Part shown: positions 1,742 to 29,005 of the stretch, one piece after another
Layout: every line of letters begins with the position of its first letter
How positions within the stretch are numbered: the stretch's first letter is position 1
Virus record (IMG/VR): IMGVR_UViG_3300044712_000677
Coordinates: 1-40,825 of that record
Length of the DNA stretch: 40,825 nt
DNA from: a virus
Reading direction: 5' to 3' (one strand)
The notes under the pieces: model-generated
What the model saw: only the letters and a program-made list of their open reading frames with translations
Told to the model about the DNA's origin: nothing
Database searches by the model: none
Translations under genes and position numbers: made by a program

Positions 1742-1791
1742 TGATATAATTAGACTATATACAAGCATTTTAGCCCAGAGGGGCTTTTTTT
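1742..1791 (+). promoter_or_regulatory. promoter plus ATTTTA-hairpin leader (copy a)
   Basis: Extended -10 TGATATAAT at 1742-1750, then a leader with GC-ATTTTA-GC (1765-1773) and a terminator-like hairpin AGCCC-AGAG-GGGCT (1772-1785) followed by seven T. The ATG at 1794 lies 2 bases beyond the T run with no Shine-Dalgarno. One of five elements of the same design. It could be a 5' mRNA hairpin, an attenuator, or simply a terminator of the upstream gene. Confidence 0.65.
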
Positions 1792-1793
1792 AT

Positions 1794-2747
1794 ATGATGA
1801 CCTACAGTCAAATCAAACAATCCTTCCTTAGAAACATAGGAGCAGATGCTTCAACAAACTCAGCGATATTGGCTGATTTTAATGCTAATCTAGCCCAGAG
1901 ATATTCAATGATTCTGGCTCGTATGAAGGACTACATGACCCAAAAAACAGTCACCACAACGACTGTAGCAGCCCAACAGTACTACCACTACCCACAAGGT
2001 GTGAGGAATGTGGAGAGTGTGGTTGTTCGCATAGGAACAGTAAATTACCCAACTACCGTCGTAAACGCCCAATGGATGTGGGACTGGTTAAATGCTATCC
2101 AAGTCCAACCAACCTCAATTCCACAATTTATCTTCCCTAGAAGGGATGACTTTGGACTCTACCCTATTCCTCAAGATGCTTATACGATGACATTTAACTA
2201 CCATTACCGAGATAGAGCGCTTTCAGTAGAAGACTACACAACGGGTTCAGTAACTGTAACCAGTGGAAGTACCACAGTCACAGGATTGGGAACAACCTTT
2301 ACTGCGGCGATGGCTGGAAGGTTCTTTTCAGTAACGAGTGATTCTAAAGGTGAGGGATATTTCTATAGAATAACCGCCGTCCCTTCGGCAACAGAACTTA
2401 CTCTGGAAAATGGATTTGAAGGAACATCAGCAGGAACACTTTCTTATTTAGTCGGAGAGATGCCTGAAATCCCAGATGAAGGACATATACTTTTAGTAGA
2501 TGGAGTGACGGCTGATTTCTACTCAGGCCCGAGACATGATATAGCGACCTCTACATGGTTTAATAACAAATTCTGGACTGGTGATGGTCAGAATAGCTCC
2601 CGAAAGATGGGTGAATCAACTATTACTGGTGGACTCATAGGACTTTGTAATCAATATACCGATAGGAATAATGAGAGGATTATTGATAGGAATAAGAAGA
2701 TATATCCATTCCTTGACCAAAACTTCGGTATGCAGGTCAATCCGTAA
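1794..2747 (+). CDS. head-to-tail adaptor (neck) protein
   Basis: 317 aa, soluble. The N-terminal helical part (IKQSFLRNIGADAS, LAQRYSMILARMKDYM) and a central beta insert with TGSVTVTSGSTTVTGLGTTF, followed by FYRITAV and EIPDEGH, are features I recognise from adaptor proteins of podovirus-like uncultured phages, which sit below the portal ring. Two ATG codons are adjacent (1794 and 1797) and either could start. The gene lies directly upstream of the very large tail protein with a 3-base gap, as expected for neck followed by tail. The role comes from family resemblance and order, not from a catalytic motif. Confidence 0.65.
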   Translation: MMTYSQIKQSFLRNIGADASTNSAILADFNANLAQRYSMILARMKDYMTQKTVTTTTVAAQQYYHYPQGVRNVESVVVRIGTVNYPTTVVNAQWMWDWLNAIQVQPTSIPQFIFPRRDDFGLYPIPQDAYTMTFNYHYRDRALSVEDYTTGSVTVTSGSTTVTGLGTTFTAAMAGRFFSVTSDSKGEGYFYRITAVPSATELTLENGFEGTSAGTLSYLVGEMPEIPDEGHILLVDGVTADFYSGPRHDIATSTWFNNKFWTGDGQNSSRKMGESTITGGLIGLCNQYTDRNNERIIDRNKKIYPFLDQNFGMQVNP

Positions 2748-2750
2748 CCT

Positions 2751-5700
2751 ATGAAAAAAGTACAAGAAAATACAGCCTTTTTTGAAGGTATCGCTGATTT
2801 TGCTAAAACAGGAGGTCCTGCTGCTTATCAACTTGGTAGGTCCATTGACCACCGTACCGATACACGTTCTATCACTCTTCTACCTAGAACTGTTAAGGAA
2901 TCTGGTACTGTTGTCACTGGACTCGTCAAGTGGATAGTCACTCCCCCGAATGGGAATGGAGATTCCTACCTCTATGATGATGTAGGGAATATTTATAAGA
3001 GAACATCAGCAGGAGTATATTCACTCATTCATACCGTCCCAAATAGTCATGGAAATGGAATGGAGTATTTTGCTGAAGATGATTTCCTCTACTACACCTC
3101 AGATTCATTAGTTGGAAGATACGGTCCTTTAAATGGAACTCCTAATTTTGTAGATGATTTCTTCGGAAGTCAGGGTGGAGCAAGAACCAATACCAACGCT
3201 CTGCAACTCCTTGCAGCATCGTCTCAATATGGGTCAAAAACATCCACCTCATCTTTACAGGTCGCTGGAGACCTTACAATAGAAGCATATATTAATCCTC
3301 TAAGTCTCCCTACAACGGGTAATTCAATGGTTATAGCGTCTAAATGGGATACTAATGGAAATAAGCGGGGATATAAATTTGATATCACAACGACAAGTAA
3401 TTATTTTGGTGATGGGTCAGATGGAGCGCTTACTATTTCCGCAGACACTACAGAGGCTCCTATTGACTCAGCTTGTACTGGAACGTCAGGAGCATTAACT
3501 CTATCAGCGACCAATGCTTCTTTCGCAGCGAATCAAATTATCTTAATTCATCAAAGCAGAGGGACGGGAGCTGGGACATGGCAGAGGAATAAAATAATCA
3601 GTTACACCGCAGGAACAATAACACTAGACTCCCCTCTTAATGCTACCTATATTACAGGAGCTCAAGTACGGGTATTAAAACAATACACCAATGTCACTAT
3701 TAATAGTGGAAAGACCTACACAGCGAAAGCATGGAATGGAACAGTTGGAGGAATTTTAGTCTTCCTAGCCAGTGGAACGGTCACAGTCACAGGGTCAATC
3801 AATGCAAATGGAAATGCAGCATCAGGAGCCGTGGGTGGAACTGGAATAGGATTTGAAGGTGGAGACTATGGATTCCCAAATAATCCAGGTGTCCAAGGAG
3901 AAGGAACTGATGGTCCAGCAGGAACTCAAACAATCAATGCTAATGGCAATGGTGGTGGTGGAGGTGCTGGTAATTCAGGAGCAGGTGGTGGAGGAAATGG
4001 AACTGCTGGCTCTGATGGTGAATTTAGAAGTGATACTGGTGATGTTGTTTTACAAAGCCCTGGATACGGTGGAAGTGCTTCTGGAGCCACTGATTTAACT
4101 TCAATGACCTTTGGTGGTGGTGGTGGAGGGTCATGGCAAGGAAATGGTGGAGCTGGTGGAGCTGGTGGTGGAATAATCTTCATATCAGCAGCAACCCTAA
4201 CAGTATCAGGCTCAATAACAGCAAATGGTGGAGCTGGAAGCGGGCTTATGGTCCGTGGTGGAGGCGGTGGGGGAGCGGGTGGGTCTATCCTATTAAAGTC
4301 ACAAACAGCAACCCTTGGAAGTGGAATTATTACCGCAAATGGAGGAGCTGGTGGTGCGGGAAATTATGTCTATTTAACAGGTCGTGGAGGAGCGGGTGGA
4401 GCTGGTAGAGTTCATTTAGACTACTACTCATCATACACAGGGACAACCTCTCCAACGATAGATGCACTTGTTGACCAGAATCTAGGAGTTTCCGATGGGT
4501 ATGTGTTAAGACTTCAACTTTCATCTAATGGAACAAATTCAGAAACCTATTCAAGAGTATTCACTCCTGTATTAAATACATGGCAACAGGTAGTAGTTTC
4601 ATGGGTATCTACGACCTCAACAGCCACATTCTATAAAAATGCCGTATCTCTAGGAACGTCAACTGCAGCCTTTACCTCTATAAGCGCTAACACTGCTGCA
4701 TTTGCTGTAGGGTGTTCATTTGGAGCCGCTAGCGCTGCGGAGAACTTTTATAACGGCTATATAGATGAAGTGAGACTCTTTAGTAAGGCCCGTTCACAGA
4801 ATGAAATCCTCTTAGGCATGGGAGACCAGATTCTCTCAACTACAGCTTATCTAAAAGCCTATTATCAATTTAATAACGCAGCAACTGATTCAACGTCAAA
4901 TGCAAATGACCTTACATTAAGTGGCTCACCAACCTATGTCACTGATACACCATTTAACGGAGCGACAACAAGACTCGATATTGACCTTTCAGCAACAACA
5001 GCTGGAAATACATATACCCTTGGCACTACTATCGTAGAGAGTGCTACGACCAAGAAAGTCTTCGCTCCGACAAAAGACCCACAGAAATCTATTGCTGTAT
5101 TAGTCGCAGCAATTGGAACTGGTGATTGGACGCTCACGGTTCATGACTCTTTTGATAACACAATAACATCAAAAACCATAACCAACGCAAACATGGCTGT
5201 AGGGTATATGGAGTTTGTCTTTTCAACCCCATGGAGACCACTTTTAAATCAAAACTATCACTTCCATCTAACTTCAACAGTCGCAGATGGAACCGTTACC
5301 ACAACGACGGCCTCTGACCTCGCCACAGTGTCTTTTAGGACGTATTTTCAGTTCCTGGTAACCGACACTTCCTTTCATCCGATAACGACCATGTTACAGT
5401 TCTTAGTATTCGGAAATGAAAGGTATCTGGCAACGTACGAAGCCACTCTATACGAACCAAACGCAATTACCATGCCAGCGGGACTGAAAACAAGATGTTT
5501 CGGATTTTGGAATGAATATTTGTCTATAGGAATCTGGAAGGGGTCAACGATTAAAGAATACGATATGGGACGACTCTACTTCTGGGATGGAACAGCACTT
5601 ACTTATAATTTCTTCGTAGATGTTCCAGAGGGAGCGGTTAATGCGATGAAAGGAACAAGAGGAAAACTCTATTTCATCGCTGGATATAGAGCAAAACTCA

Positions 5701-6389
5701 TGGTTTATGAAGGCGCAGCACAAGCCCGTAAGATTAAGAATTTAATAAACACGGAAAATGACACAACAATAGAAGTCTTCCCTGGAGCGATGAATATGTG
5801 GAGAACGCTTCTTCGGATAGGGGTAGCGGGTAATGCAGATGACGCTACGGTCCAACGAGGGGTTTATACTTGGGGGTCAGTGAATGATAAATACCCAGAC
5901 TCACTCTCATTTGATTACGTTATCTCAACAGGAAACTATATTGGAAACACTATAACCATCGGATGTATAGCCACAGTAAATGCTAAACTACTCATTTCTT
6001 ATAAAGATAACACCTCATATGGAGTGGATTATGTCGATATAACCAACGCTCCCTACCCAACGGGGAGAATTGAATTCTTAATAGAAGATGATGGAGCGAT
6101 GTATCATCAAAAAGAAACAGTGACCATTGGAGCACAATTTAAAGCTCTAAATTCTGGAGAGAGTGTCTCTCTTCAATATAGATTGGACCGAAACGCTAAC
6201 TGGACGACAGCGATAACCGATTCTACCGCAGGAGATATCACTTTGAGAGCACCACTGGTTTCCAACGGGATTAGGTATCGGGAGTATGAAGTGGCCGTAG
6301 ATTTATCCACCTCTACCACAACCTCACCTACCTTACTTGCAGTTTCAACGGAGAACGAACAACTGGAGAGTGAAAAGAGGGTATCATGA
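2751..6389 (+). CDS. large tail protein with LamG halves split by a Gly-rich insert
   Basis: 1212 aa, the largest gene. Residues 1-140 look like the start of a podoviral tail nozzle/stabiliser (PAAYQLGRSIDHRTDTRS). Residues about 148-212 are the first half of a LamG/concanavalin-like fold (LTIEAYINPLSLP, IASKWDTNGNKRGYKFDI), and residues about 581-715 the second half (TWQQVVVSW, FYNGYIDEVRLFSKARS, AYYQFNNAATDS). Between them is an insert of about 370 aa whose later part is extremely Gly-rich. The C-terminal 350 residues are beta-rich and propeller-like. LamG folds usually bind glycans, so surface attachment is a reasonable inference. The TGA stop overlaps the next ATG (ATGA). Confidence 0.75.
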   Translation: MKKVQENTAFFEGIADFAKTGGPAAYQLGRSIDHRTDTRSITLLPRTVKESGTVVTGLVKWIVTPPNGNGDSYLYDDVGNIYKRTSAGVYSLIHTVPNSHGNGMEYFAEDDFLYYTSDSLVGRYGPLNGTPNFVDDFFGSQGGARTNTNALQLLAASSQYGSKTSTSSLQVAGDLTIEAYINPLSLPTTGNSMVIASKWDTNGNKRGYKFDITTTSNYFGDGSDGALTISADTTEAPIDSACTGTSGALTLSATNASFAANQIILIHQSRGTGAGTWQRNKIISYTAGTITLDSPLNATYITGAQVRVLKQYTNVTINSGKTYTAKAWNGTVGGILVFLASGTVTVTGSINANGNAASGAVGGTGIGFEGGDYGFPNNPGVQGEGTDGPAGTQTINANGNGGGGGAGNSGAGGGGNGTAGSDGEFRSDTGDVVLQSPGYGGSASGATDLTSMTFGGGGGGSWQGNGGAGGAGGGIIFISAATLTVSGSITANGGAGSGLMVRGGGGGGAGGSILLKSQTATLGSGIITANGGAGGAGNYVYLTGRGGAGGAGRVHLDYYSSYTGTTSPTIDALVDQNLGVSDGYVLRLQLSSNGTNSETYSRVFTPVLNTWQQVVVSWVSTTSTATFYKNAVSLGTSTAAFTSISANTAAFAVGCSFGAASAAENFYNGYIDEVRLFSKARSQNEILLGMGDQILSTTAYLKAYYQFNNAATDSTSNANDLTLSGSPTYVTDTPFNGATTRLDIDLSATTAGNTYTLGTTIVESATTKKVFAPTKDPQKSIAVLVAAIGTGDWTLTVHDSFDNTITSKTITNANMAVGYMEFVFSTPWRPLLNQNYHFHLTSTVADGTVTTTTASDLATVSFRTYFQFLVTDTSFHPITTMLQFLVFGNERYLATYEATLYEPNAITMPAGLKTRCFGFWNEYLSIGIWKGSTIKEYDMGRLYFWDGTALTYNFFVDVPEGAVNAMKGTRGKLYFIAGYRAKLMVYEGAAQARKIKNLINTENDTTIEVFPGAMNMWRTLLRIGVAGNADDATVQRGVYTWGSVNDKYPDSLSFDYVISTGNYIGNTITIGCIATVNAKLLISYKDNTSYGVDYVDITNAPYPTGRIEFLIEDDGAMYHQKETVTIGAQFKALNSGESVSLQYRLDRNANWTTAITDSTAGDITLRAPLVSNGIRYREYEVAVDLSTSTTTSPTLLAVSTENEQLESEKRVS

Positions 6390-6655
6390 CGGATGATTTG
6401 GAGAGTAAGGTTGCGAAACTTGAAAAACAGGTTACTTTTCTTCTGGAGAAGAGAATCCTTCAAACTGACATCACCCCATCGGTAGTGAAAACCCGCCACA
6501 TGGGAGAGGCAAATAGATATATTTTGACTGGGTTAGAAGCAGACCTTCCTAGTGGAGAATCCTTTGGAAGTTCCTGTAGTGCATATTTCGCCTCTGATAC
6601 GAATAAGCTATGGATTTGGAATGGAAGTGCGTATAAATCAACAACATTAACTTAG
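6386..6655 (+). CDS. small virion-associated protein with N-terminal coiled coil
   Basis: 89 aa, translationally coupled to the large tail protein by an ATGA overlap. Residues 3-25 form a heptad-like coiled coil (LESKVAKLEKQVTFLLEK). The rest is a short beta module, ending ASDTNKLWIWNGSAYKS, a motif found at the ends of many phage fibre or head-fibre proteins. Probably a trimeric fibre or tail accessory. Exact function not recognised. Confidence 0.7.
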   Translation: MTDDLESKVAKLEKQVTFLLEKRILQTDITPSVVKTRHMGEANRYILTGLEADLPSGESFGSSCSAYFASDTNKLWIWNGSAYKSTTLT

Positions 6656-6707
6656 TGATATAATTAAGTATAAGGCATTTTAGCCACTCCAACCGAGTGG
6701 CCTTTTT
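6656..6707 (+). promoter_or_regulatory. promoter plus ATTTTA-hairpin leader (copy b)
   Basis: TGATATAAT at 6656-6664, then GGC-ATTTTA-GCC (6674-6685). The GCC strand also opens the stem GCCACTC-CAACC-GAGTGGC (6683-6701), followed by a T-rich run. A Shine-Dalgarno (AGGAG) follows before the ATG at 6719. Strands 1:2 and 2:3 are mutually exclusive, as in an attenuator. Confidence 0.65.
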
Positions 6708-6718
6708 ATAGGAGAACT

Positions 6719-7708
6719 ATGGCAACTGCATTTAATCCAATAGACGCTTACAAACCACCAACAACCGCTTCTAAAAACTGGTGGGATATGCCGACAAGTA
6801 ACCAATTAGGAGCTTCTACACAGAGTGGATTTAACCTTCCCGATTTCGGTTCAGTTGTCGGAAGTCAAAGACAAGCCAGTGGAAATATGATGGCAAATCA
6901 GGGGGCTCAGACAGGTCAATTTCTTCAGAATTATGGGAACGCTATAAATGACCAGGAAAAGATGAGAGCGATGTACTCACGGTTGGGTGATGAGTTGAAC
7001 CTTCCCGCCCTCCAAAACCAAGCACAGACCCTTACATCGACCCTAGAAGCCATTCCTCAGACCTATGGAAGTGCTACACGGGGATTTGATGTCAATGCAA
7101 ATCAATTAGGTAGAATAGTCGGAACGAAACAAGCCCAACTCGCTCCTCTACAACAGAAAGCCGTCGGACAACTCCAAACCGCCCAGAATCAAATTGGGAC
7201 TCAGATGGGTCTGGAACAAGCACAGCAACAGAAGGAACTCCAACCATATGATATGGAGAGGCAGTTCTTAACCGATAGAATGGCACGTGAGACCTCATTA
7301 TTCACTCAAGACGCTGAGAGAGAATACAACGCTCTGGTGACGAAGATGCAAGCTGGTATTCAACTGAGTGAAGCAGAGAAGAATAGAGCACAAGAATTAG
7401 AAATGCAAAAAAGAAGTTTTGAAAATGCAAAATCATTGGCAATGATAAAAGAACCATCTGCTGAAAATATATTGAAAGTAGGTAAGGGTGATAGTCTTTA
7501 TGACCCAAATACGGGCAAATGGATAACTGCTCCAGGTGGCACAAGTGGAACTGGTGGCGGGGGTAGTGGAAATTATTATGGAACACAAAATAATGGCGGA
7601 TATTATAGAGGAAGCTCTAACCAATCAGATTTAGATTATATTATGAGTCAACCAGGTGGAGAACAATTCCTTATAAGTAAAGGTCTTATTGGTTCAAGAG
7701 GATATTGA
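6719..7708 (+). CDS. putative internal virion protein
   Basis: 329 aa, rich in Gln and Ala, with a long helical middle (about residues 90-240: LQNQAQTLTSTLEAI, LQTAQNQIGTQMGLEQ) and a flexible Gly/Ser/Tyr tail (GGTSGTGGGGSGNYYG). Placement after the adaptor and tail genes and before a 701-aa helical protein matches the internal or ejection proteins of podoviruses, which leave the capsid with the DNA. No catalytic motif seen. Start chosen for its AGGAG site just after leader b. Confidence 0.55.
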   Translation: MATAFNPIDAYKPPTTASKNWWDMPTSNQLGASTQSGFNLPDFGSVVGSQRQASGNMMANQGAQTGQFLQNYGNAINDQEKMRAMYSRLGDELNLPALQNQAQTLTSTLEAIPQTYGSATRGFDVNANQLGRIVGTKQAQLAPLQQKAVGQLQTAQNQIGTQMGLEQAQQQKELQPYDMERQFLTDRMARETSLFTQDAEREYNALVTKMQAGIQLSEAEKNRAQELEMQKRSFENAKSLAMIKEPSAENILKVGKGDSLYDPNTGKWITAPGGTSGTGGGGSGNYYGTQNNGGYYRGSSNQSDLDYIMSQPGGEQFLISKGLIGSRGY

Positions 7709-7709
7709 T

Positions 7710-9815
7710 ATGGGACAACTCCTAAGTGAATTTCAAAACTTTTCATCTGGAAAGATGGGTAATACAGGAGTTACTTCTACGCCTAGTGATGTTACTTCAG
7801 TTCCTAAACAAAAATATATAACAGGACATTCATTAGAAGAACACGCTGCTGCTTTAAATAAAGCAAAGGCAGTAAGAGATACAGCAGCTATTAAATCTAT
7901 CACCGATGACTACGATAGAGAATTACAATATCAAAAAGATTTTGGAATAGAGAAGCCAAAAACAGCCACGGAGTTAAAAACGCAAGAAGGGATTAAATTA
8001 AAATCTGACACTCTTGAAATGGCTAAAAATCTTCGTGATATTATAAGTGGAAAAATTCAGTTTGGAGATAAAAGTACCAGAGAAACTGCTATAAATGGAT
8101 TGGTAGGTAAATTAACATTAAAACAAAAAGAAGCTGAAAATCTCGGAGCTGTTTTGTCAGCAAACGAACAAGCTCTTCTTCAATCATATATTCCCAGAAC
8201 TGAAGAAGTTGGACCATCTGTATATAGTTTGGCAAATCAATATTTAGTTCCTCAATTTATGGGTGGAGGAATAAAACCATTACAAACATCACGAATGGCA
8301 GATGATGAGAAAAAAGCTAAGGAGAAGTTAGACTTACTTATATCAGGATTTGAAGGAAAACCTATTACAGCAGATACATTTTCTGGACAGGGACCTAAAC
8401 CTGGATATATTGAGAGTAAAGTAATTCCAGATATAAAAGAAAATATTAATAAAGTCCTTGGTATTCCAGCGCAAATGATTGAACAAGAGAAACAATTAGA
8501 AAAACTACCAGTAAAACAACAGGTAATAGAACGGGCAAAAATAGCAATGGGACAAGCTATTGGTTCACAGCCACCAGTTCAATATGCTCAGACAGCTAAC
8601 CAAGTATTAGGTGAACCATTAAAAGGCGGAGATATTGTTGGTCGTATAGAAGAGAGAGCGTATAATAAGCCAGTCACCACAGCACTTGATGTGGGAGTTT
8701 TAGCTTCTCCATTTTTACCAGGACTAACAAAACGTGGATTATCAGAAAAACCAGGAATGGTTCCAGGAGAAGTTCCTCCAGCTAGCACTCTTCCAGAAAA
8801 ACCAGGATTTATTCAGGGCACATTATCCCGTTCAGTAGCAAATATCTATCCAGAAGATATTATTAATAGTGAAAAAGCTGGAAAGATTACTTTACAGGCT
8901 ACTCCAGGAAAAATGACTCCGAGAAGTATTGCATATGATTTAAAACAGAATGTTCTTCCAAAAACAGGAGAATATGTTGATTATGTTGTAAATGAATCTA
9001 GTAAAAAATTAGGAGTACAACCTGGAAGCCAATTGCTTGATGCAGTTATGGAACCTGTAAAACAAAATTCAATTCTTCAGGGAATGGAAGCAAGTCCACA
9101 GGAAGTCAAATTAAGAAATCTATTGGAAAGCAAAATGTCTACTGGAAACGCCCCTCCTGAGATGGCAGCACAGGGTCAGACATGGGCTACAAATCAACAA
9201 AAATTGAATGAAACACGTAAATTCTTAAATCAAGGATTAGAGCAGTGGTTTAATGCAGGTAAACCAACAAATACACCAGCAAATGAATTTAATGCTTTAA
9301 AATGGGATGCGTCTCAGGCTATAAAAGATATTCTTGCTAAATCCGACACAACTCCAGAGGGTAAGTTTAGAAAAGCACTTGAAATACAACACTATGCAAT
9401 AGCTGGATATCCAGAATATTCTAAAGCAGCAAATATGAACGCATTAAGCCAGGGTGGATATCTGAATAAGATATTAGGCTTAATAGGAGAAGTAACTTCG
9501 CCTATTAGAACTGGTGTAGCTAGAATGGCTCAGGGAACAGACCCAGTGTTAAATCAAATTTTACAGGGAAGTAAAGGACTTCCCATAGCTCCAGAACCAG
9601 TCCCAGTAGCTCCCTCGGCTCAAATGAGATATCTACCTTCTCAACCAGATTTAGGCCCTGGAATACCAGCAAAATCAAATACACTTTATAATTTAAATGG
9701 TGAATTTGTTCCTAAGGAAAAACTTCCAAAAGGCTATAAACCTCCAGAAGTACCTGCTAAGCCTGGAAGAAAACCTACTACCTATGTAAAGGGTACAAAA
9801 AATTTATACGTTTAA
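7710..9815 (+). CDS. putative large internal virion / ejection protein
   Basis: 701 aa from the ATG at 7710, one base after the upstream stop; a longer frame from 7689 would overlap the previous gene. Mostly helical, Lys/Glu/Gln-rich, with Pro-rich linkers (about residues 345-370 and from about 625 on). It shows a segment around TAINGLVGKLTLKQKEAENLGAVLS and ends in a basic tail. No enzyme motif or transmembrane helix is evident. Position and size fit an internal core or ejection protein; the assignment is by context only. Confidence 0.55.
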   Translation: MGQLLSEFQNFSSGKMGNTGVTSTPSDVTSVPKQKYITGHSLEEHAAALNKAKAVRDTAAIKSITDDYDRELQYQKDFGIEKPKTATELKTQEGIKLKSDTLEMAKNLRDIISGKIQFGDKSTRETAINGLVGKLTLKQKEAENLGAVLSANEQALLQSYIPRTEEVGPSVYSLANQYLVPQFMGGGIKPLQTSRMADDEKKAKEKLDLLISGFEGKPITADTFSGQGPKPGYIESKVIPDIKENINKVLGIPAQMIEQEKQLEKLPVKQQVIERAKIAMGQAIGSQPPVQYAQTANQVLGEPLKGGDIVGRIEERAYNKPVTTALDVGVLASPFLPGLTKRGLSEKPGMVPGEVPPASTLPEKPGFIQGTLSRSVANIYPEDIINSEKAGKITLQATPGKMTPRSIAYDLKQNVLPKTGEYVDYVVNESSKKLGVQPGSQLLDAVMEPVKQNSILQGMEASPQEVKLRNLLESKMSTGNAPPEMAAQGQTWATNQQKLNETRKFLNQGLEQWFNAGKPTNTPANEFNALKWDASQAIKDILAKSDTTPEGKFRKALEIQHYAIAGYPEYSKAANMNALSQGGYLNKILGLIGEVTSPIRTGVARMAQGTDPVLNQILQGSKGLPIAPEPVPVAPSAQMRYLPSQPDLGPGIPAKSNTLYNLNGEFVPKEKLPKGYKPPEVPAKPGRKPTTYVKGTKNLYV

Positions 9816-9948: not shown

Positions 9949-9997
9949 TGTTATAATAAGGTATAGACGAATTTACGCCTCCATAGGGAGGCTTTTT
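9949..9997 (+). promoter_or_regulatory. promoter plus ATTTTA-type hairpin leader (copy c)
   Basis: TGTTATAAT at 9949-9957, CG-AATTTA-CG (9968-9977), then GCCTCC-ATAG-GGAGGC (9977-9992) with five T. An AAGGAG site follows before the ATG at 10011. Same layout as copies a, b, d and e. Confidence 0.65.
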
Positions 9998-10010: not shown

Positions 10011-10241
10011 ATGGACCCACAAATTATGGCTCAATTACAACAAGGCGCAGGACAACCTCCACAGCCGATGCCTCCACAGGCACCACAAGGCCAACAGTTA
10101 CCAAAAGACCAGTCTATGATTATCGTAGAAGCCCTTATAAAACAACTTGAGCGATTGGATGCACAAAAAAGAGTGGAGATGGGTGAACCGCCGAAAGGTA
10201 TGGAGCCACAAGTTCCACAAGGACCGATGGGAGGAATGTGA
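10011..10241 (+). CDS. Pro/Gln-rich small protein
   Basis: 76 aa. The first 30 residues and the C-terminus are Pro/Gln/Gly/Met-rich and disordered (PPQPMPPQAPQGQQLP); the centre is one helix (SMIIVEALIKQLERLDAQKRVEMG). First gene after leader c, with a strong AAGGAG site. Such proteins occur beside phage fibre genes, but I do not recognise a function. Confidence 0.65.
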   Translation: MDPQIMAQLQQGAGQPPQPMPPQAPQGQQLPKDQSMIIVEALIKQLERLDAQKRVEMGEPPKGMEPQVPQGPMGGM

Positions 10242-19094: not shown

Positions 19095-19528
19095 TGATAT
19101 GTCCAATATGTTCAAAAGTTTGCTCAGATAAAGTAGTTTCTTTTTCAAATCATTATAGATGGTGTTCGGGGATGCTTACGGAAAGACCACCTGTAACAAA
19201 AGAGACAAGAATTAAAATAGGTTTAGGAAATAAAGGGAAAAAAATAAGTGAACAACAGAGGATGAGTTTGAGTATAACCAGAATGGGAGAAAATAACCCT
19301 TTTTGGAAAGGCGATAACGTAGGATTAACAGGATTACATAGATGGATAAAAAGACATAAACCGAAAACAGATTACTGTGAACAATGTCATGTTAAAAAAC
19401 CTTTTGATTTAGCAAATATAAGTCAAAAATATTTAAGAGATATAAATGATTTTGAGTGGCTATGTAGAAAATGTCACATGAGCAAAGACGGAAGATTAAT
19501 GAAGTTTGTCAAAACTAAATATGCGTGA
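19094..19528 (+). CDS. HNH homing endonuclease with NUMOD3-like motif
   Basis: 144 aa. N-terminal zinc motif CPICSKVC with H and C further on; a NUMOD3-type DNA-binding repeat (KISEQQRMSLSITRMGENNP); and an HNH-like core with CEQC, ANISQKYLRDINDFEWLC and CRKCHMSKDG. Free-standing homing enzymes of this type cut related phage genomes and copy themselves in. AT-rich and slightly unlike the flanking genes. It overlaps the next start by eight bases. Confidence 0.75.
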   Translation: MICPICSKVCSDKVVSFSNHYRWCSGMLTERPPVTKETRIKIGLGNKGKKISEQQRMSLSITRMGENNPFWKGDNVGLTGLHRWIKRHKPKTDYCEQCHVKKPFDLANISQKYLRDINDFEWLCRKCHMSKDGRLMKFVKTKYA

Positions 19529-19844
19529 GTTATGCGTTCTCTGTCATAAGGTTCACGAAGCCCACAACTGGAAATACACAGAGTATGAAACAGTAGACGG
19601 CGTTAAGTACGGATACTTCTGCGAGAAGTGGTTCAAGCCCTCCCATCCCGAATGGGTTCCCCAACGAATTAAAGACGAGAGAAACGCTATGGCCAAGAGT
19701 ATGATTCAGCCCTACCGAGAAGGTGTCTTATCAAAAGAATTTGTTGATACCTATGGAACGAAACATGTAGACCCCAAGGAAGTGAAGAAAGCAAAAAACG
19801 TCTGGAAGGACACACTGCCAAGTAATTGGCAAAGTACAAAATAA
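19521..19844 (+). CDS. early protein with N-terminal Cys pair
   Basis: 107 aa from the ATG at 19521, which overlaps the HNH stop. CVLCHKVH near the N-terminus and YFCEKWF may form a zinc site; the rest is helical and basic (WVPQRIKDERNAMAKSMI; VDPKEVKKAKNVWKDTLP). Family not recognised. Probably the original first gene of this operon before the homing endonuclease arrived. Confidence 0.65.
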   Translation: MRELCVLCHKVHEAHNWKYTEYETVDGVKYGYFCEKWFKPSHPEWVPQRIKDERNAMAKSMIQPYREGVLSKEFVDTYGTKHVDPKEVKKAKNVWKDTLPSNWQSTK

Positions 19845-21827: not shown

Positions 21828-21882
21828 TTTTTCCTATTCTGTAGGTATAATCATTACACACCTACTTGCTCTATAGACTTTT

Positions 21883-21906: not shown

Positions 21907-21916
21907 GTGCCGTATC

Positions 21917-22216: not shown

Positions 22217-22326
22217 GGTATCCCCTTTATAAATGTTGTTTATAATTTTATATATTGGCTGTAGTGTTTGATGTGTCATTACTTAGCTTGTCACATATAT
22301 ATTACAAGCACCAATATAACGGTAAT

Positions 22327-22350
22327 ACCTTGCACCGATGATATAACGAC
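22327..22350 (-). repeat. inverted repeat, right copy, with a second partial copy
   Basis: Minus strand CGTTATATCATCGGTGCAAG, with another CGTTATATTGGTGC (22320-22307) in the same direction. Together with 21883-21906 there are three CGTTATAT-TCGG type sites around the ArdA-like gene: operators or iterons. Confidence 0.55.
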
Positions 22351-22456
22351 TATTAAATTGTTAACGTGCAACCTCTTTATCTAAATAGACTATAGCAGAC
22401 GTTTACCATTATTGTCAACAAGCAATTTGTCACGTACTAACAAGCTATTTAAAAAG

Positions 22457-22486
22457 TGATAAAATAGTAGTATGCAAGACCTTGCA
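22457..22486 (+). promoter_or_regulatory. leaderless promoter and palindrome at the terminase start
   Basis: TGATAAAAT (22457-22465), 6 bases, ATG at 22472; TGCAAG-AC-CTTGCA occupies 22473-22486, i.e. the first transcribed bases. A repressor bound here would block the start of the late block. The 250 bases upstream hold only repeats and AT-rich sequence. Confidence 0.65.
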
Positions 22487-22990: not shown

Positions 22991-23006
22991 GTCACTACAG
23001 GGGCTC

Positions 23007-23039
23007 ATGTAACTACATCATGCTATAATGTAACTACAT
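23007..23039 (+). promoter_or_regulatory. double palindromic operator around a TATAAT box
   Basis: ATGTAACTACAT at 23007-23018 and again at 23028-23039, flanking TGCTATAAT (23021-23029). The second copy runs into the ATG at 23038. The outer five bases of each half pair perfectly (ATGTA/TACAT), as expected for a dimeric DNA-binding protein. Confidence 0.75.
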
Positions 23040-23346
23040 GAGAACAATAACGATAAGACAATTTCAGCAACATATGTATGAGGAGCTAGCCACGCTACCC
23101 GTAGCTGTTAGCCGTAAAGGTAAGCCCGCATTCATTGTAACTACATCAGACAATGTAACTACATCAAATACTAAGGATAATGTAACTACAAGTAGTAATG
23201 TAACTACACCCGTTACAATGCCCGTAAAAGAGCACGTCATCATGAAGACTAAGCAAGACGCAGTAAGGGTAGCAAGGACACTACACAACGTAACAGGCGA
23301 GCTATGCGTACACAACCTGATGTACCATCCAGGGTGCAACGTATGA
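23038..23346 (+). CDS. Phd/YefM-like antitoxin or autorepressor with operator-encoding linker
   Basis: 102 aa. Residues 1-36 match the Phd/YefM DNA-binding fold (TITIRQFQQHMYEELATL, VAVSRKGKPAFIV). Residues about 35-57 are a Thr/Ser/Asn linker with repeated NVTT units, then a C-terminal region with LHNVTGELC. Antitoxins of this family repress their own promoter as dimers. No toxin gene is adjacent: terminase subunits flank it. It may act alone as a regulator or counter a host toxin. Confidence 0.75.
   Translation: MRTITIRQFQQHMYEELATLPVAVSRKGKPAFIVTTSDNVTTSNTKDNVTTSSNVTTPVTMPVKEHVIMKTKQDAVRVARTLHNVTGELCVHNLMYHPGCNV
23136..23208 (+). repeat. four intragenic copies of the operator core
   Basis: TGTAACTACA at 23136, 23154, 23181 and 23199, same orientation, matching the two promoter operators. 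They encode the NVTT linker of the Phd-like protein. Confidence 0.85.
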
Positions 23347-23405
23347 AGTGGTGTTTCGTTTGCGAAAGAAATATTTGTATGGTACCTATCCCCCCGTATT
23401 TTTAA
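23343..23405 (+). CDS. possible 20-aa Cys-containing peptide
   Basis: ATGA overlap with the Phd-like gene; MKWCFVCERNICMVPIPPYF has a CxxC pair. The coupling is suggestive, the length is not. About 85 bases with only AT-rich sequence and the next promoter follow. Confidence 0.3.
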   Translation: MKWCFVCERNICMVPIPPYF

Positions 23406-23480
23406 CTCCCTACAACTCGTATACTACTATCGGTCTACCCCCGTACGTCATTTCTTTTTTAAGTACCTAATGCGATTTAG

Positions 23481-23486
23481 TATAAT
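23481..23486 (+). promoter_or_regulatory. -10 box of the large terminase gene
   Basis: TATAAT, 6 bases before the ATG at 23493. Confidence 0.65.
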
Positions 23487-23492
23487 GAGTGT

Positions 23493-24956
23493 ATGGAACA
23501 AGTCTCCCTTCGTGAGTTGATGAACTTTCAACCCAAACAAACCTCAGCGTTAAAAGCCCTTCTGGACCCCAAATGTAAGTATTTGTTATATGGTGGGGCT
23601 ATGGCTGGAGGGAAAAGTTACGTCCTGAGGTGGTCAGCCTTTTACTACTCACTGTGGCTTTCTCAAAAGTATGGGTTAAAAGGAATCCCAGTCGGGTTGT
23701 TCTCAGAGGACTATCCTACCCTTAAAGACAGACAGATAAGTAAGATGGCCCGTGAGTTCCCCAGTTATCTGGGAGATTTAAAAGAAAGCAAAGAAGAAGG
23801 CTTCGCTTTTTTTATCAAAGATATCTACGGGGGAGGACGTATCTTACTTCGGAATCTCGATGACCCTTCTAAGTATATGAGTAGTGAGTTTGCTGGAATC
23901 TTCGTTGAAGAATTGACGAAGAATAACGAACAAACCTTTCAAGACCTTCGTATTCGGTTGAGATTCCCAGGTATCGACCAGGTGAAATTCATGGGAGCTT
24001 CCAATCCAGGTGGAGTTGGACATGGGTGGGTAAGAAAGTACTTCGTTGATAAAGCAGCCTTTGACGACCCTGAGAAAGACAGGTTTAGTTACGTCCACGC
24101 TACGGCGTATGATAACAAGTATATAAACCAGGACTATTTGAGGCAACTTGAATCCCTTCCGTTAAAGAAGAGGAAAGCGTTCTTAGAAGGAAATTGGGAC
24201 ATCTTTGAAGGACAGGTCTTTGTTGAGTGGGACCGTGAGAAACATGTGATTCCGCCGTTAGTTCCAAAGGATGCCTATGCCTTCGTCGCTGGGTTAGATT
24301 GGGGATACTCCGCACCAACTGTTTTGTTATGTGGGTGTCTCTACCCCCAAGATGTAGATGGGAAGAAGTTCCACCGTTTGATTATTTACAAGGAAATAGA
24401 CGGAATGGAAATCACTCCTGAGAATTGGGCCAAAAAGTGGAAAGAAACCATCACTGAGTTTATGCGACTGAAGATTTACGGTGACCCTGCAATGTTTAAT
24501 AAACTTCAAGACAGTTCCTTTAGTATAGCCGACCAACTAAGAAGAGAGGGTGTCTATGTCCATAAATCAACAAATAACCGTTTAAATGGCATTACAACGA
24601 TTCACAACTGGCTTTCCCAAGCCCCTGATGGACTTCCCTTTATGCAGATAACGGATAATTGTCGGAATCTTATACGAACCTTACCAGAGGCGATGTATGA
24701 TGAAAACGTCCAAGAAGATACGGATAGGAATTGGGCGGAGGACCATTGGTATGATTCACTTCGGTATTTGGTTTCTATGCTTAAATGGGCGCCTGGACAG
24801 GTTGGTGGGGTAATGAGGCCCAACGGACAGAGAGTAGGGATTCCTAAATATCAACTGATGGATAAACAAGGGAGGTTGGTTTCTCTTGACCCTAGTAGGT
24901 TTGGAGAGGTTCAAAACAAAGTCGGAGTCTATTATCCAGATAGTACAAATCGTTGA
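23493..24956 (+). CDS. terL: terminase large subunit (ATPase and nuclease)
   Basis: 487 aa. ATPase domain: Walker A GGAMAGGKS (34-42), Walker B GIFVEEL (135-141), coupling motif GASNPGG (168-174). Nuclease domain (RNase H fold): D269 in GLDWGYSAP, D331 in YGDPA, and D417/D421 in EDHWYDSLRY. The motor pumps DNA into the prohead and cuts the concatemer. Full length, all key residues present. Expressed from its own leaderless promoter. Confidence 0.95.
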   Translation: MEQVSLRELMNFQPKQTSALKALLDPKCKYLLYGGAMAGGKSYVLRWSAFYYSLWLSQKYGLKGIPVGLFSEDYPTLKDRQISKMAREFPSYLGDLKESKEEGFAFFIKDIYGGGRILLRNLDDPSKYMSSEFAGIFVEELTKNNEQTFQDLRIRLRFPGIDQVKFMGASNPGGVGHGWVRKYFVDKAAFDDPEKDRFSYVHATAYDNKYINQDYLRQLESLPLKKRKAFLEGNWDIFEGQVFVEWDREKHVIPPLVPKDAYAFVAGLDWGYSAPTVLLCGCLYPQDVDGKKFHRLIIYKEIDGMEITPENWAKKWKETITEFMRLKIYGDPAMFNKLQDSSFSIADQLRREGVYVHKSTNNRLNGITTIHNWLSQAPDGLPFMQITDNCRNLIRTLPEAMYDENVQEDTDRNWAEDHWYDSLRYLVSMLKWAPGQVGGVMRPNGQRVGIPKYQLMDKQGRLVSLDPSRFGEVQNKVGVYYPDSTNR

Positions 24957-24958
24957 TT

Positions 24959-24967
24959 TGATAGAAT
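24959..24967 (+). promoter_or_regulatory. extended -10 promoter after terL
   Basis: TGATAGAAT, 6 bases before the ATG at 24974; begins within 3 bases of the terL stop. Confidence 0.55.
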
Positions 24968-24973
24968 AAGAGT

Positions 24974-25096
24974 ATGAGAAGAGTTTTACGATTTATTGTC
25001 AGTCTTATCTGTTTACCTTTTATGATTATTTGGGATTTTGCTGATTCAGATGTCATCCCAACCTGGAAAGATATTAAATGGTGGTTATTTACCTAA
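24974..25096 (+). CDS. 40-aa membrane microprotein
   Basis: ATG at 24974 with leaderless geometry, stop TAA at 25096. Basic N-terminus, one hydrophobic helix (LRFIVSLICLPFMIIWDFAD), aromatic tail (WKDIKWWLFT). Single-pass peptide between terminase and portal. Function unknown. Confidence 0.6.
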   Translation: MRRVLRFIVSLICLPFMIIWDFADSDVIPTWKDIKWWLFT

Positions 25097-25097
25097 T

Positions 25098-25340
25098 ATG
25101 GACGTTTTAATTCTCGACAAACGGAAAAATATTCAAGTCACTTCGGTGATTATCGCTTCCGACCCACTAGACAAGGTGGGAGAAAAACTACATATGTTTT
25201 TTTGTTATAACTGTCAAAACCCCATCGCCCAATACATAGGTCGGGTGATTCGGATAACCCCTGGCTCAACTCCTCTTTCGTTACCAGTTCTTTTGAAATG
25301 CCGATGTGGAAAGGTGTATCAAATCGAAGACATACTCTAG
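25098..25340 (+). CDS. 80-aa zinc-ribbon protein
   Basis: Start chosen at 25098, one base after the upstream TAA; the longer frame from 25038 is the shadow of the membrane peptide. A beta-rich body (VLILDKRKNIQVTSVIIASD) precedes CYNC near residue 36 and CRC near 69, a split zinc ribbon. Perhaps a packaging or transcription accessory. Not recognised. Confidence 0.65.
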   Translation: MDVLILDKRKNIQVTSVIIASDPLDKVGEKLHMFFCYNCQNPIAQYIGRVIRITPGSTPLSLPVLLKCRCGKVYQIEDIL

Positions 25341-25390
25341 TGATATAATAAAGTATAAGCGATTTTACGCCACCGACGAGGTGGCATTTC
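25341..25390 (+). promoter_or_regulatory. promoter plus ATTTTA-hairpin leader (copy d)
   Basis: TGATATAAT at 25341-25349, GCG-ATTTTA-CGC (25359-25370), then GCCACC-GACGA-GGTGGC (25369-25385). The ATG at 25392 follows the hairpin by 6 bases with no separate Shine-Dalgarno. The weak T tract (ATTTCT) argues against a simple terminator. Confidence 0.65.
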
Positions 25391-25391
25391 T

Positions 25392-27392
25392 ATGTTACAA
25401 AACCCATCCCAACTGATTAAAGACGTAGGACAAGACTATCCTTTACAAGCAAAAGACGGCATCGTTGAAGAGATGGACCCCTTATCTTTGGATATTGAGG
25501 ATAAAGAGTTAGCTAAGGTCCTAGAAGACAGAATTCAAAAAAGTAAGAAGTTTTTTGAAGACATATATCAATTAAGTATTCGTCGCCAGAAGAATGAAAC
25601 CTATTACTTGGGGCGACAGATAGGAAAAAATGAAAAAGCAAACCGTTTACGCCCATACGAAGGCCGCTACCAAGACAACGCACTCTATGAGATTGAAGCG
25701 TCTATTAAGCCTGTTGCGCTTTCTAAGATGCCTGACCTTCTGGTCACGCCAGGAAACCCAACAAAAGAAGCCAAAGAAACAGCCAAAAACATCACGACGA
25801 TAATTGACGACGATATTAAAACGAGAGAGAGAAGGAAAGTCCTCGCCATGGCGTTTAAACATCTTCCAATTTACTTTACTGGAATTATTAAAGTTCGTTG
25901 GGACCCTGAAAAGGGTGAATTTGGGGATTATACGTTTGAAAATGTCCATCCTGAGAATGTTGTTGTAGACGAACAAACTCCCATTAACGATGCCAATGCG
26001 ATGAAATTCATCGCCCAGGCGGTAAAGATGTCCGTCCAGGAAGTGGTGATGAGATTCCCTCAAAAAGAAGAGGAATTTCTAACCGAGATTAAAAAACAAG
26101 GTATCCAAGTCAAACAGGGTGAGGATTGGAAGCAGATGGCCACCCAAGTCAAAATCTGGGAAGTCTGGTTTACCTGGTATAAGAAGAAAAGTGAAACCGA
26201 ATACGAGAGAATTGAAGGAGTGTTGTGGAAGTTTGGTGACTGTATCTTAAAAAAGATGAAGAATCCGAACTTTGACTACGAAGGATATAAGACCTTCTAC
26301 ACGTATGACCAGGAGATTAAGAAGGAATCTACCCAAGAAGAATTGATGGCAGCGACCATAGGGCCTCAACTGGGCCTTCCAACACCAAATATTCAGCAGG
26401 AAACCACCTATAGGAACTACTTCCAAGACCCAGAGAAACCCTATTACTTCATGGGATTTGACCAGTTAGGGAAAATAGCTTATGACGAGACCTCCCGTAT
26501 TGAGCAAAACATCTACAACCAGGAAAATATAGACAATATCGGTAAAAGAATTATTGAAAAGCTACGAGATAGAGGAAAGCATATCTTTTCTAAAGAATCT
26601 GGCCTTACAGGAAAAGATTTAGAGCGAATGGATATGAACAACCCCGACCAAGATATTTTGGCTGAGGGAGATGTGAACAAAGTCCACGCCTATATCCAGC
26701 CTCCACAACCGACTCAACAGGAGTTTGCTGAGATTAAAATGGCCAGAGACCGTATGTTTACCCTTGCAGGAGCGACAAATCTCAATGGAACCCTCCAAAG
26801 TGATGTTGCAACCTCAAATCAAATTGCAAGAGAAGCGAATTTCTCACGTGTTGATGACTTAACAGAGGAAACGATTAACACCGCAGCCGAATGGATGGCC
26901 CGCTGGTCACTTCAAATGATTAAACTCCGTTACACACAGGAACATATGAGGAAAATTCTCGGTTCTAAGGGTGATGTAGCCTTCATGAAGTTAAAAAGTG
27001 ACATGATTGACGATGGAATGGAGATAAAGATTAAAGCCAGTGGCACTGATAAGCAAAAACGCAAGAATATGGCAATGGAAATGGCAAAATTGAAGATGAT
27101 TGACCCACTTTCCTTCTATGAGGACCTGGATTTGAACGACCCAGTAGGAAGAACGGAGAAAATGCTCCTTTCTCAGACAGACCCAGCCACGTATATGATG
27201 AAATTTGTCATGAATATGGATATGCAGCAGGGAATTGATGCCTTAAATCAACAACCGATGCCAGGACAACCAGGTCCACAACCATATGTGAATCCTGTTT
27301 CAACCAATCAACAGCAACCAGTACCAGGAAACACCTCCCAGGTGGCAACTGAGCCTCCAACTGGGGTAACTTCTTCACCACAAGGACAGTAA
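25392..27392 (+). CDS. portal protein
   Basis: 666 aa, the usual size for large P22-like portals. Helical wing and stem regions with NETYYLGRQIGKNEKANRLR, a clip/stem part with KAVLPIYFTG-like hydrophobic strands (AFKHLPIYFTGIIKVRWDPE), and a C-terminal crown with Gln/Pro-rich tail (QQPMPGQPGPQPY). Portals form the dodecamer through which DNA enters and leaves. Located directly after terminase and before scaffold and coat genes, as expected. Confidence 0.85.
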   Translation: MLQNPSQLIKDVGQDYPLQAKDGIVEEMDPLSLDIEDKELAKVLEDRIQKSKKFFEDIYQLSIRRQKNETYYLGRQIGKNEKANRLRPYEGRYQDNALYEIEASIKPVALSKMPDLLVTPGNPTKEAKETAKNITTIIDDDIKTRERRKVLAMAFKHLPIYFTGIIKVRWDPEKGEFGDYTFENVHPENVVVDEQTPINDANAMKFIAQAVKMSVQEVVMRFPQKEEEFLTEIKKQGIQVKQGEDWKQMATQVKIWEVWFTWYKKKSETEYERIEGVLWKFGDCILKKMKNPNFDYEGYKTFYTYDQEIKKESTQEELMAATIGPQLGLPTPNIQQETTYRNYFQDPEKPYYFMGFDQLGKIAYDETSRIEQNIYNQENIDNIGKRIIEKLRDRGKHIFSKESGLTGKDLERMDMNNPDQDILAEGDVNKVHAYIQPPQPTQQEFAEIKMARDRMFTLAGATNLNGTLQSDVATSNQIAREANFSRVDDLTEETINTAAEWMARWSLQMIKLRYTQEHMRKILGSKGDVAFMKLKSDMIDDGMEIKIKASGTDKQKRKNMAMEMAKLKMIDPLSFYEDLDLNDPVGRTEKMLLSQTDPATYMMKFVMNMDMQQGIDALNQQPMPGQPGPQPYVNPVSTNQQQPVPGNTSQVATEPPTGVTSSPQGQ

Positions 27393-27393
27393 T

Positions 27394-28128
27394 ATGAACT
27401 TTCTTGACTGGATAAGTGAAAAAATAAATGGACCAAAGGTTATTTCTCCTGTTCCTGACCCAAGTCCAACTCCTACGCCATATGAGAAGACTACAACCCT
27501 ACCAGATGGGTCTATACGTACTATGTTTGTCTCTCCGACACCAACTGCGAGTCCAACGCCAACTAAAAAGCCAATTATTCCTGAGGTTTTAGGAGCATCG
27601 AACGATAGAGTTGAACCATATCCAGTTGGACCAGGAACTCCACCAAGAAGTGAACTCTATCCCAGATTACAAACAGAAAATCAAAATATAACCCCAGAAC
27701 TTTATGATGCAACGATGAAGAATATTTCAGATGACTATAAGAGAAGATTAGCATTGGCTTTATTCTCTCAGGAATCATCTGGTGGTAAAAGTTTATATGG
27801 TGATTTTGATGAGAATAATAATCCAAGAGCGTTTGGACCAGCCCATATTCAACCAGGAAATGCACCACCAGTTCCAGGATATTTCCAACCAACAAAGGAA
27901 CAAGCCATGGACCCAAATTGGGTAACAAAATATTTAAATGATTATATGAATTACAATGAATTACAAACTCCGAAAGAAGGACTTATGAGGAGATGGAATT
28001 ATAATTCAGGATATCAGGGAGATTTAAAATTAGTAGATAAAAAAGGAAATAAGTTAGTAAATTCTGGCCCAAGATATGACGTTGATATTCCAAGAGCAGC
28101 GACAATGAGTGCTTTTATTAAAAAGTAG
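27394..28128 (+). CDS. virion lytic transglycosylase / lysozyme-like protein
   Basis: 244 aa. Residues 18-65 are a Pro/Thr-rich spacer (PSPTPTPYEK, PTPTASPTPTKKPIIPEVLG). The C-terminal domain has the SLT-type pattern: catalytic Glu in LALALFSQESSGGKS (E127), FGPAHIQP (148-155) and RRWNYNSGYQGD. Such enzymes open peptidoglycan during DNA entry. It starts one base after the portal stop. The spacer ending EVLGAS resembles cell-envelope proteins of Microgenomates-type bacteria. Confidence 0.7.
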   Translation: MNFLDWISEKINGPKVISPVPDPSPTPTPYEKTTTLPDGSIRTMFVSPTPTASPTPTKKPIIPEVLGASNDRVEPYPVGPGTPPRSELYPRLQTENQNITPELYDATMKNISDDYKRRLALALFSQESSGGKSLYGDFDENNNPRAFGPAHIQPGNAPPVPGYFQPTKEQAMDPNWVTKYLNDYMNYNELQTPKEGLMRRWNYNSGYQGDLKLVDKKGNKLVNSGPRYDVDIPRAATMSAFIKK

Positions 28129-28139
28129 ATTCTTCAAAA

Positions 28140-28148
28140 TGCTATAAT
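28140..28148 (+). promoter_or_regulatory. extended -10 promoter of the scaffold gene
   Basis: TGCTATAAT inside a block of about 40 bases that recurs at 33709 (AAAATGCTATAATAC, then AGGAGATTTA before the ATG). Confidence 0.65.
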
Positions 28149-28172
28149 ACCTATATAGAGGAGATTTATCTT

Positions 28173-28946
28173 ATGGCAAAAAAGAAAGTTGAGTTCGTCG
28201 CAGAAGTTCCTGAAAAGGAAGAAGCCCCAGAAATTGATTACAAGGAAACCCATGAAGCCAAATTGGAGGACATCGTTGGTGCTCCCCCAGAAGAGCCGAA
28301 AATTGAAGAACCAGTTATCCCTGAAGTAAAAGAAGAAAAACCTCCATTTGACGCTGAAAAGTTAAAAGAGGAAATCTCCGAAGCCACAGCTAAGAAAATC
28401 ATAGAAGCCACAACCCAACAAAAAGAACCGAAAAAAGAAGTGGATGAAGAACTCATCTCTCCTTGGGCGAAAGAAGGTCGTGCTCCGAAAGATTACGAAG
28501 AAGTAGCGGATTGGGGAGTAGAAAAGAAATCTATTCTTGACCGAAGAGAAAGAGAAGCAGAACTTCTTAAACAACAGGAAACCGCCAAACAAACAGAGGA
28601 ATACAACAAGCAACAAGTAGCGGATTTTAACAAATATACCGATGACCAACTTGGTGATTTGAAAGCTGCGGGAAAGATTAAAACTCCAGAAGAACAGCGG
28701 GCACTCTTTCAGTCTATGCTAGATGTAAACATCGCCAGACAGAAAGAAGGGAAAGCACCTATCTATTCCATAAAAGAAATATTTTACGAACACTATAAAG
28801 CTCCGACTGCTCAGCCAGCAGGTGCAGACGCTCCAATCTCCCCAGGTACAGGAGCATTGGCAAGCGAAGGGAAGGAAATGGACTACAAAGACCTCCAGCC
28901 AGGTGTCCCATTTGCCCAATGGTTAGCCAACAGCTTCAGAAAGTAA
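28173..28946 (+). CDS. capsid scaffolding protein
   Basis: 257 aa, highly charged (Glu/Lys), helical, with a disordered acidic N-terminus (VAEVPEKEEAPEIDYKE) and coiled-coil centre (LDRREREAELLKQQETAKQ). Positioned immediately before the major capsid gene, as scaffolds of podoviruses are. Ends with a small hydrophobic/basic tip (PFAQWLANSFRK) that could dock on coat protein. Assigned from composition and order. Confidence 0.75.
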   Translation: MAKKKVEFVAEVPEKEEAPEIDYKETHEAKLEDIVGAPPEEPKIEEPVIPEVKEEKPPFDAEKLKEEISEATAKKIIEATTQQKEPKKEVDEELISPWAKEGRAPKDYEEVADWGVEKKSILDRREREAELLKQQETAKQTEEYNKQQVADFNKYTDDQLGDLKAAGKIKTPEEQRALFQSMLDVNIARQKEGKAPIYSIKEIFYEHYKAPTAQPAGADAPISPGTGALASEGKEMDYKDLQPGVPFAQWLANSFRK

Positions 28947-28950
28947 GTCA

Positions 28951-29005
28951 TGCTATAATTATAAGTAATAGGATGATTTAATCCACTCGCAAGGGTGGAT
29001 TTTTT
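28951..29005 (+). promoter_or_regulatory. promoter plus ATTTTA-type hairpin leader (copy e)
   Basis: TGCTATAAT (28951-28959), GGAT-GATTTA-ATCC (28971-28984), then ATCCACTC-GCAA-GGGTGGAT (28981-29000) with six T. A second TATAAT lies at 29036-29041, downstream of the hairpin. Confidence 0.65.

Follow-up and report, generated by a model that had tools for sequence, protein, structure and literature searches.

What looks like an undescribed RNA switch, a small hairpin overlapping a terminator, recurs ahead of late genes in a phage family

In the ANTAR leader RNAs of eut, nas, and ami operons, a hairpin with a hexaloop beginning with A overlaps a downstream intrinsic terminator, and in the BglG/SacY/LicT systems an antiterminator element excludes an adjacent, overlapping terminator (PMC3369931). 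With lambda Q and Pseudomonas aeruginosa AlpA, a promoter-proximal intrinsic terminator is bypassed, the protein loading from promoter DNA (PMC6606751, PMC9371919). HK022 put and Tn916 canT are cis-acting, promoter-near RNAs that let their own polymerase pass terminators, and in Tn916 the terminator T1 insulates the transposon's own genes from promoters outside it (PMC9378689, PMC11658703). Here we analyze the viral record IMGVR_UViG_3300044712_000677 (the window, meaning the whole stretch of 40,825 bases), in which five copies of one short element precede late genes. Judged from its sequence, the element looks like an undescribed RNA on/off switch that is reused at one late gene after another.

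All five elements share one build: an extended -10 promoter (TGnTATAAT) is followed by a mini-hairpin of 2–4 bp with a 6-nt AT loop, near the predicted RNA 5′ end, and then by an intrinsic-terminator hairpin with a U-tract, the 5′ base of the terminator being the 3′ strand of the mini-hairpin. We call the two arms of the mini-hairpin strands 1 and 2, and the terminator arm that competes with strand 1 for strand 2 is strand 3. The first-pass annotation had proposed elements at 1742, 6656, 9949, 25341, and 28951, and all five read as it described, down to the exact mini-stems (GC/GC, GGC/GCC, CG/CG, GCG/CGC, and GGAT/ATCC). Its loop sequence ATTTTA holds in three copies, the other two having AATTTA and GATTTA, and it did not mention the extended -10 feature that all five promoters have. 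Promoters were called on this extended -10 alone; a -35 hexamer was not part of the criteria. The features are as follows (SD, Shine-Dalgarno sequence):

1742..1750, + strand: element 1, extended -10 promoter TGATATAAT
1765..1774, + strand: element 1, mini-hairpin GC-ATTTTA-GC, 2 bp, weak
1772..1791, + strand: element 1, putative terminator AGCCC-agag-GGGCT followed by TTTTTT; adaptor ATG at 1794
1794..2747, + strand: element 1 gene, head-tail adaptor (SU10_adaptor)
6656..6664, + strand: element 2, extended -10 promoter TGATATAAT
6674..6685, + strand: element 2, mini-hairpin GGC-ATTTTA-GCC
6683..6707, + strand: element 2, putative terminator GCCACTC-caacc-GAGTGGC followed by CTTTTT
6719..7708, + strand: element 2 gene, late protein with no function assigned, conserved in 14/14 records
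9949..9957, + strand: element 3, extended -10 promoter TGTTATAAT
9968..9977, + strand: element 3, mini-hairpin CG-AATTTA-CG, 2 bp, weak
9977..9997, + strand: element 3, putative terminator GCCTCC-atag-GGAGGC followed by TTTTT
10011..10241, + strand: element 3 gene, small late protein (cluster cl3) with no function assigned, whose orthologues elsewhere also lie behind an element
25341..25349, + strand: element 4, extended -10 promoter TGATATAAT
25359..25370, + strand: element 4, mini-hairpin GCG-ATTTTA-CGC
25369..25391, + strand: element 4, terminator-like stem GCCACC-gacga-GGTGGC with a weak U-tract, ATTTCT
25378-25383: element 4, SD-like GAGGTG, 8 nt before the ATG at 25392 and mostly within the 3′ arm of the terminator stem
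25392..27392, + strand: element 4 gene, portal protein
28951..28959, + strand: element 5, extended -10 promoter TGCTATAAT
28971..28984, + strand: element 5, mini-hairpin GGAT-GATTTA-ATCC
28980..29005, + strand: element 5, putative terminator AATCCACTC-gcaa-GGGTGGATT followed by TTTT
29060..30157, + strand: element 5 gene, major capsid protein; its leader has an SD and a second TATAAT at 29036

There are 13 TGnTATAAT sites in the window, and five of them are followed by a hairpin and U-tract, against a mean chance expectation of 0.027 for the combination (maximum 2 in 300 order-2 Markov sequences). Of 100,000 spacer shuffles, two reached the total stacking of the five mini-stems with the loop fixed at 6 nt, and 41 did so with loops of 5–7 nt allowed. 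The mini-stems at 1742 and 9949 have only 2 bp, so these copies weigh little on their own, and the argument is carried by relatives of the window phage.

Portal and capsid protein scans, followed by a capsid alignment, turned up 27 viral loci as relatives, along with two contigs from metagenome-assembled genomes (MAGs) of anammox bacteria; adaptor and terminase scans brought no additional relatives. Whole records were retrieved for 15 relatives, and the element survey covered 34 records. These contain 64 extended -10 promoters with a hairpin and U-tract within 32 nt, and 78 promoter–hairpin candidates under looser rules that allow larger loops; about 66 candidates have a mini-hairpin. Beyond the window's five, the relatives found through the capsid gene hold ~65 further elements.

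Among them the mini-stem changes its letters and keeps its pairing: We see GGC/GCC, GCG/CGC, GGAT/ATCC, GTC/GAC, GGA/TCC, GGTT/AACC, and CGGT/ACCG, and further GAGT/ACTC, GGGT/ACCC, GGCT/AGCC, AGCG/CGCT, GAGC/GCTC, and CGG/CCG. Stacking energy was used as the score, since a plain count of pairs is swamped by A–T pairs. For the first 42 elements, the mean mini-helix stacking is -5.5, compared with -2.1 in shuffled spacers and -3.4 when arms are exchanged between elements. A stacking of -5 or better is reached by 30 of the 42, whereas 2,000 trials of each kind gave 3.6 on average (maximum 10) with shuffled spacers and 13 (maximum 22) with exchanged arms.

MAFFT misplaced the copy at 1742 when given the five window copies alone, so 14 similarly built elements were aligned instead. 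In this alignment all 42 cells of the mini-helix are paired, 15 of them changed on both sides; the covariation score is 1.077, compared with ≤0.048 for slid partners, and RNAalifold proposes the same mini-helix unaided. The first-pass annotation had named a covariance search without homologues as grounds for giving up the proposal. Our covariance model returned matches, and it recovers three window copies outside its training set: elements 5 (28951; E = 0.00025), 3 (9949; E = 0.0013), and 1 (1742-1795; E = 0.014), E-values that are supporting rather than independent evidence, since the model was trained on clear cases among related sequences. It found no match in the TM7 or Manatee phages. The claim that both helices covary over the five copies is strong once the relatives are included, but in the window alone it rests on three good copies. 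Since the pairings of both helices are kept while the letters change, the element looks like a real RNA switch, and the antiterminator-versus-terminator architecture put forward at first reading is strongly supported by the relatives.

The anatomy of the element is narrow. The stems of the 66 mini-hairpins are mostly of 3–4 bp, with loops of 5–7 nt and a mean energy of -3.1 kcal/mol; the first loop base is A in 54, and G is nearly absent (five in 388 loop nucleotides). Strand 1 begins 8–11 nt past TATAAT in 52 of the 66. An estimate of the RNA start comes from the leaderless genes of these phages, in which the ATG lies exactly 6 nt after the extended -10 in 45 cases, compared with ~4 expected, an about tenfold excess; window examples, at 5–6 nt after TATAAT, are 761, 12105, 23481, 35461, and 38025. 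This peak places the RNA start at about the seventh nucleotide after TATAAT and the beginning of strand 1 at about +3 to +6.

The mini-hairpin is also linked to the terminator. It is present at 61 of 78 promoters with a terminator (18.5 expected) and at 25 of 165 without one (19.2 expected), the latter showing no enrichment, although coding sequence occupies that place at many of these promoters. In 64 of 65 elements the mini-stem displaces two to six pairs at the foot of the terminator. Intrinsic termination depends on the stem-foot pairs that adjoin the U-tract.

The reading we prefer, with a probability of roughly 0.55, is that the element is a cassette combining a transcription start with attenuation, in which the mini-hairpin is an antiterminator set against the terminator, working free of protein or with a host factor, and which probably insulates each late gene from upstream read-through. 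RNA polymerase would start ~7 nt after TATAAT, with just a few nucleotides of RNA ahead of strand 1, and strands 1 and 2 would pair once both had emerged. Strand 3 would then compete for strand 2 to complete the terminator. A standing mini-hairpin would keep the lowest 2–5 bp of the terminator, beside the U-tract, open, and polymerase would read through into the gene; where strand 3 won, polymerase would stop ahead of the AUG. Polymerases arriving from the upstream gene would be stopped, while those started locally would have a dependable mini-hairpin at the RNA 5′ end and get through at a frequency that sets the dose of each late protein. Folding of partial transcripts predicts a mini-hairpin occupancy of 0.89 before strand 3 appears and of 0.03 in the full RNA.

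The promoter, both helices, their covariation, the fixed order and spacing, the orthologous positions, and the linkage of mini-hairpin and terminator were all computed. What we infer from these is the function: The stems would stop transcription, the mini-hairpin would make this stop less frequent, and the purpose would be insulation. An insulating role is suggested because the elements lie between adjacent co-directional genes, each gene has its own promoter, and no phage gene tracks the element. We also entertain, tentatively, a self-exempting terminator that stops upstream polymerases and spares those from the promoter just before it, a repeated late-gene insulator needing no dedicated protein, because only an RNA with strand 1 as its 5′ end would fold the blocking mini-hairpin reliably.

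Several observations weigh against the attenuation cassette. At equilibrium the terminator is favored by about 5.5 kcal/mol on average, so escape would have to be kinetic or helped; by the folding model an unaided mini-hairpin could have an effect only while the RNA is being made, when it would oppose closure of the terminator foot with ~3 kcal/mol. The 2-bp mini-stems at 1742 and 9949 lie near or above 0 kcal/mol, and in one relative (G017:32358) the two hairpins are adjacent and do not overlap. Nothing specific separates read-in from local transcripts: The predicted mini-hairpin occupancy in read-through RNA is 0.53, compared with 0.51 behind foreign upstream RNA, and we therefore rejected a specific masking of strand 1 by the upstream part of read-through transcripts, foreign RNA being equivalent. 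The lower predicted occupancy with any upstream RNA weakly fits a device that favors the locally started polymerase. Finally, loop sequences resemble each other more among the elements of one phage than across phages, a likeness that a protein-free device would not need.

This last point also bears on a possible, if doubtful, alternative, that a trans-acting RNA-binding protein of phage or host reads and stabilizes the loop of the mini-hairpin in the style of ANTAR, BglG-type, or lambda N systems and so turns the late genes on. Loop and 5′ overhang are phage-specific (loop identity 0.785 within and 0.548 between phages, z = 6.4), while the stems vary more; the loops mostly begin with A, the terminator is favored when unaided, and a hexaloop mini-hairpin overlapping a terminator matches the ANTAR arrangement (PMC3369931). 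However, seven element-rich phage records contain no ANTAR (PF03861), CAT_RBD (PF03123), or Q/Antiterm (PF03589) domain and no NusG-like protein (PF02357) of the kind used in LoaP/RfaH-type antitermination (0/7 for each). Nor is any open reading frame (ORF) family of the window common to the element-rich records yet absent from the element-poor relatives G001 and G002; in a phyletic profile for a phage-encoded factor, the families that differ are those of GroEL/GroES type and a few of small ORFs, all absent from the window. The lack of known domains and of a tracking gene speaks against a phage-encoded factor, although a host factor or an unrecognized protein could take its part.

It is unlikely that the 5′ hairpin instead serves mRNA stability or translation, through 5′-end protection or a G-rich strand 3 as ribosome site, with the terminator look incidental. 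The AUG follows the hairpin by 5–17 nt in 48 of 66 elements with an SD core in the gap in just one, the region before the AUG pairs with the anti-SD better than shuffled sequence (-5.1 and -2.4), and at the window's portal element the 3′ arm of the terminator forms part of the SD-like GAGGTG. But an SD-like core lies in strand 3 in only 10 of the 48, for which reason we rejected strand 3 as a hidden SD; U-tracts are kept directly behind the stem, mini-hairpins are not enriched at terminator-less promoters, and the capsid elements, which have longer leaders and often an SD, retain the same device. The claim that two genes start directly after the hairpin without an SD holds for 1794 but not for 25392. 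Very improbable is an ordinary upstream-gene terminator that lies by chance behind the next promoter, with a coincidental mini-stem: The upstream stop codon is near, the gaps are small, and two window mini-stems are just 2 bp, but covariation across many phages, the narrow spacing from the -10, and the co-occurrence statistics exclude coincidence, and the promoter precedes the terminator in all elements.

In the relatives, all clear elements are on the late-gene strand. Most complete records have several, many of these phages having four to 10 late promoters with an element per genome; the maximum of 10 is in G004, and G002 has the capsid copy alone and G001 none. Orthologues that bear the element encode the portal, capsid, and adaptor proteins, the 6719 family, the 10011-type small protein, and a tail-type family (38037/35473). 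A plain leaderless promoter stands in place of the element at the portal gene of G001, G002, and L007 and at the adaptor gene of G002. The upstream stop codon mostly lies 3–7 nt before TATAAT, and with the AUG close on the other side the element makes up the entire intergenic gap. Two DNA-pattern scans of 2.9 million viral contigs, made without protein information, added true elements from this phage family alone, again preceding portal, capsid, and 38037-family genes where gene matching was possible, and the element is apparently specific to the family. The two anammox-MAG contigs, PHFX01000165.1 (L034) and JANLHC010000032.1 (L035), are family phage contigs in MAGs named Candidatus Brocadia and Candidatus Scalindua; outside its phage contig the Brocadia MAG contains no element. 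They are probably mis-binned phage contigs, or otherwise a clue to an anammox host.

The window begins and ends with an identical 127-nt repeat (1-127 = 40699-40825), so that the genome is probably complete, and circular or circularly permuted. The nearest named relatives of its portal, capsid, and adaptor proteins are from the TM7 phage DolZOral124_53_65 and the Manatee Spring phage MW202566 (identity 25% for portal, 32–33% for capsid); since these include a TM7 phage, a patescibacterial host is likely. The adaptor was called by an SU10_adaptor domain match, the portal by a weak PHROG connector match and a tblastn match to an annotated portal, and the capsid by a tblastn match to the Mx8 major head protein. 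These three assignments agree with the first-pass annotation, but the genes at 6719 and 10011, which it placed in tail/internal blocks, have no assigned function.

Other features of these genomes are recorded here in passing. Two small cysteine-pair (zinc-ribbon-like) proteins, encoded at 19524-19844 and 25098-25340 of the window, are kept in 13 of 14 relatives. At 22991-23211, GTAACTACA(TCA) repeats in and around a small ORF at 23038 resemble an operator array. Three glycosyltransferase 2-type genes (772-1740, 31037-31951, and 31948-32865, two of them in tandem) adjoin structural genes and could point to glycosylation of virion proteins. A GroEL-type chaperonin, in some cases with GroES, is encoded in L011, L012, G003, G004, G006, G007, G009, G012, G013, G015, G017, and G018, and BLAST found no GroEL/GroES-type homologue in the window, G001, G002, or G019.

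To our knowledge, almost nothing is known about gene control in phages of episymbiotic TM7 bacteria. If our reading is true, a helix of 3–4 bp at the extreme 5′ end of the transcript would be the smallest antiterminator on record that we know of. With its ~65 natural variants, the element lends itself to testing how small a number of base pairs at the terminator foot tips the choice between stopping and reading on, and it is a possible part for insulated expression cassettes.

The first-pass annotation called the element undescribed, and this description stands: Rfam gave no match at gathering score in the window, focused searches gave chance-level matches only, and we found no paper describing it in a literature that was covered without most subscription journals. 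Among described systems, put and canT likewise serve to bring polymerase past a promoter-proximal or insulating terminator. Those RNAs are larger, however, and canT is processive and active as fragments of 341–452 nt, whereas the hairpin of 10–14 nt described here would act, if at all, on one terminator through direct overlap. As with Q and AlpA, a promoter is closely followed by an intrinsic terminator that needs to be bypassed, but the present element has an RNA helix that covaries with this terminator. The ribonucleic antiterminator (RAT) of BglG/SacY/LicT is also a hairpin, but longer and conserved in sequence, and CAT_RBD proteins bind it; the present element is like it in having an antiterminator that would exclude an overlapping terminator, and unlike it in that the stems vary freely. 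The closest known arrangement is the ANTAR leader RNA, in which a small, A-first hexaloop hairpin likewise lies upstream of and overlaps a terminator and is repeated before several genes; the present element differs in having one hairpin rather than two, no conserved G at loop position 4, and a hairpin at the RNA 5′ end. With a promoter and two mutually exclusive helices, one of them a terminator with a U-tract, ahead of a gene, the element has the architecture of an attenuator, and it would be a new form of attenuation, a known kind of control.

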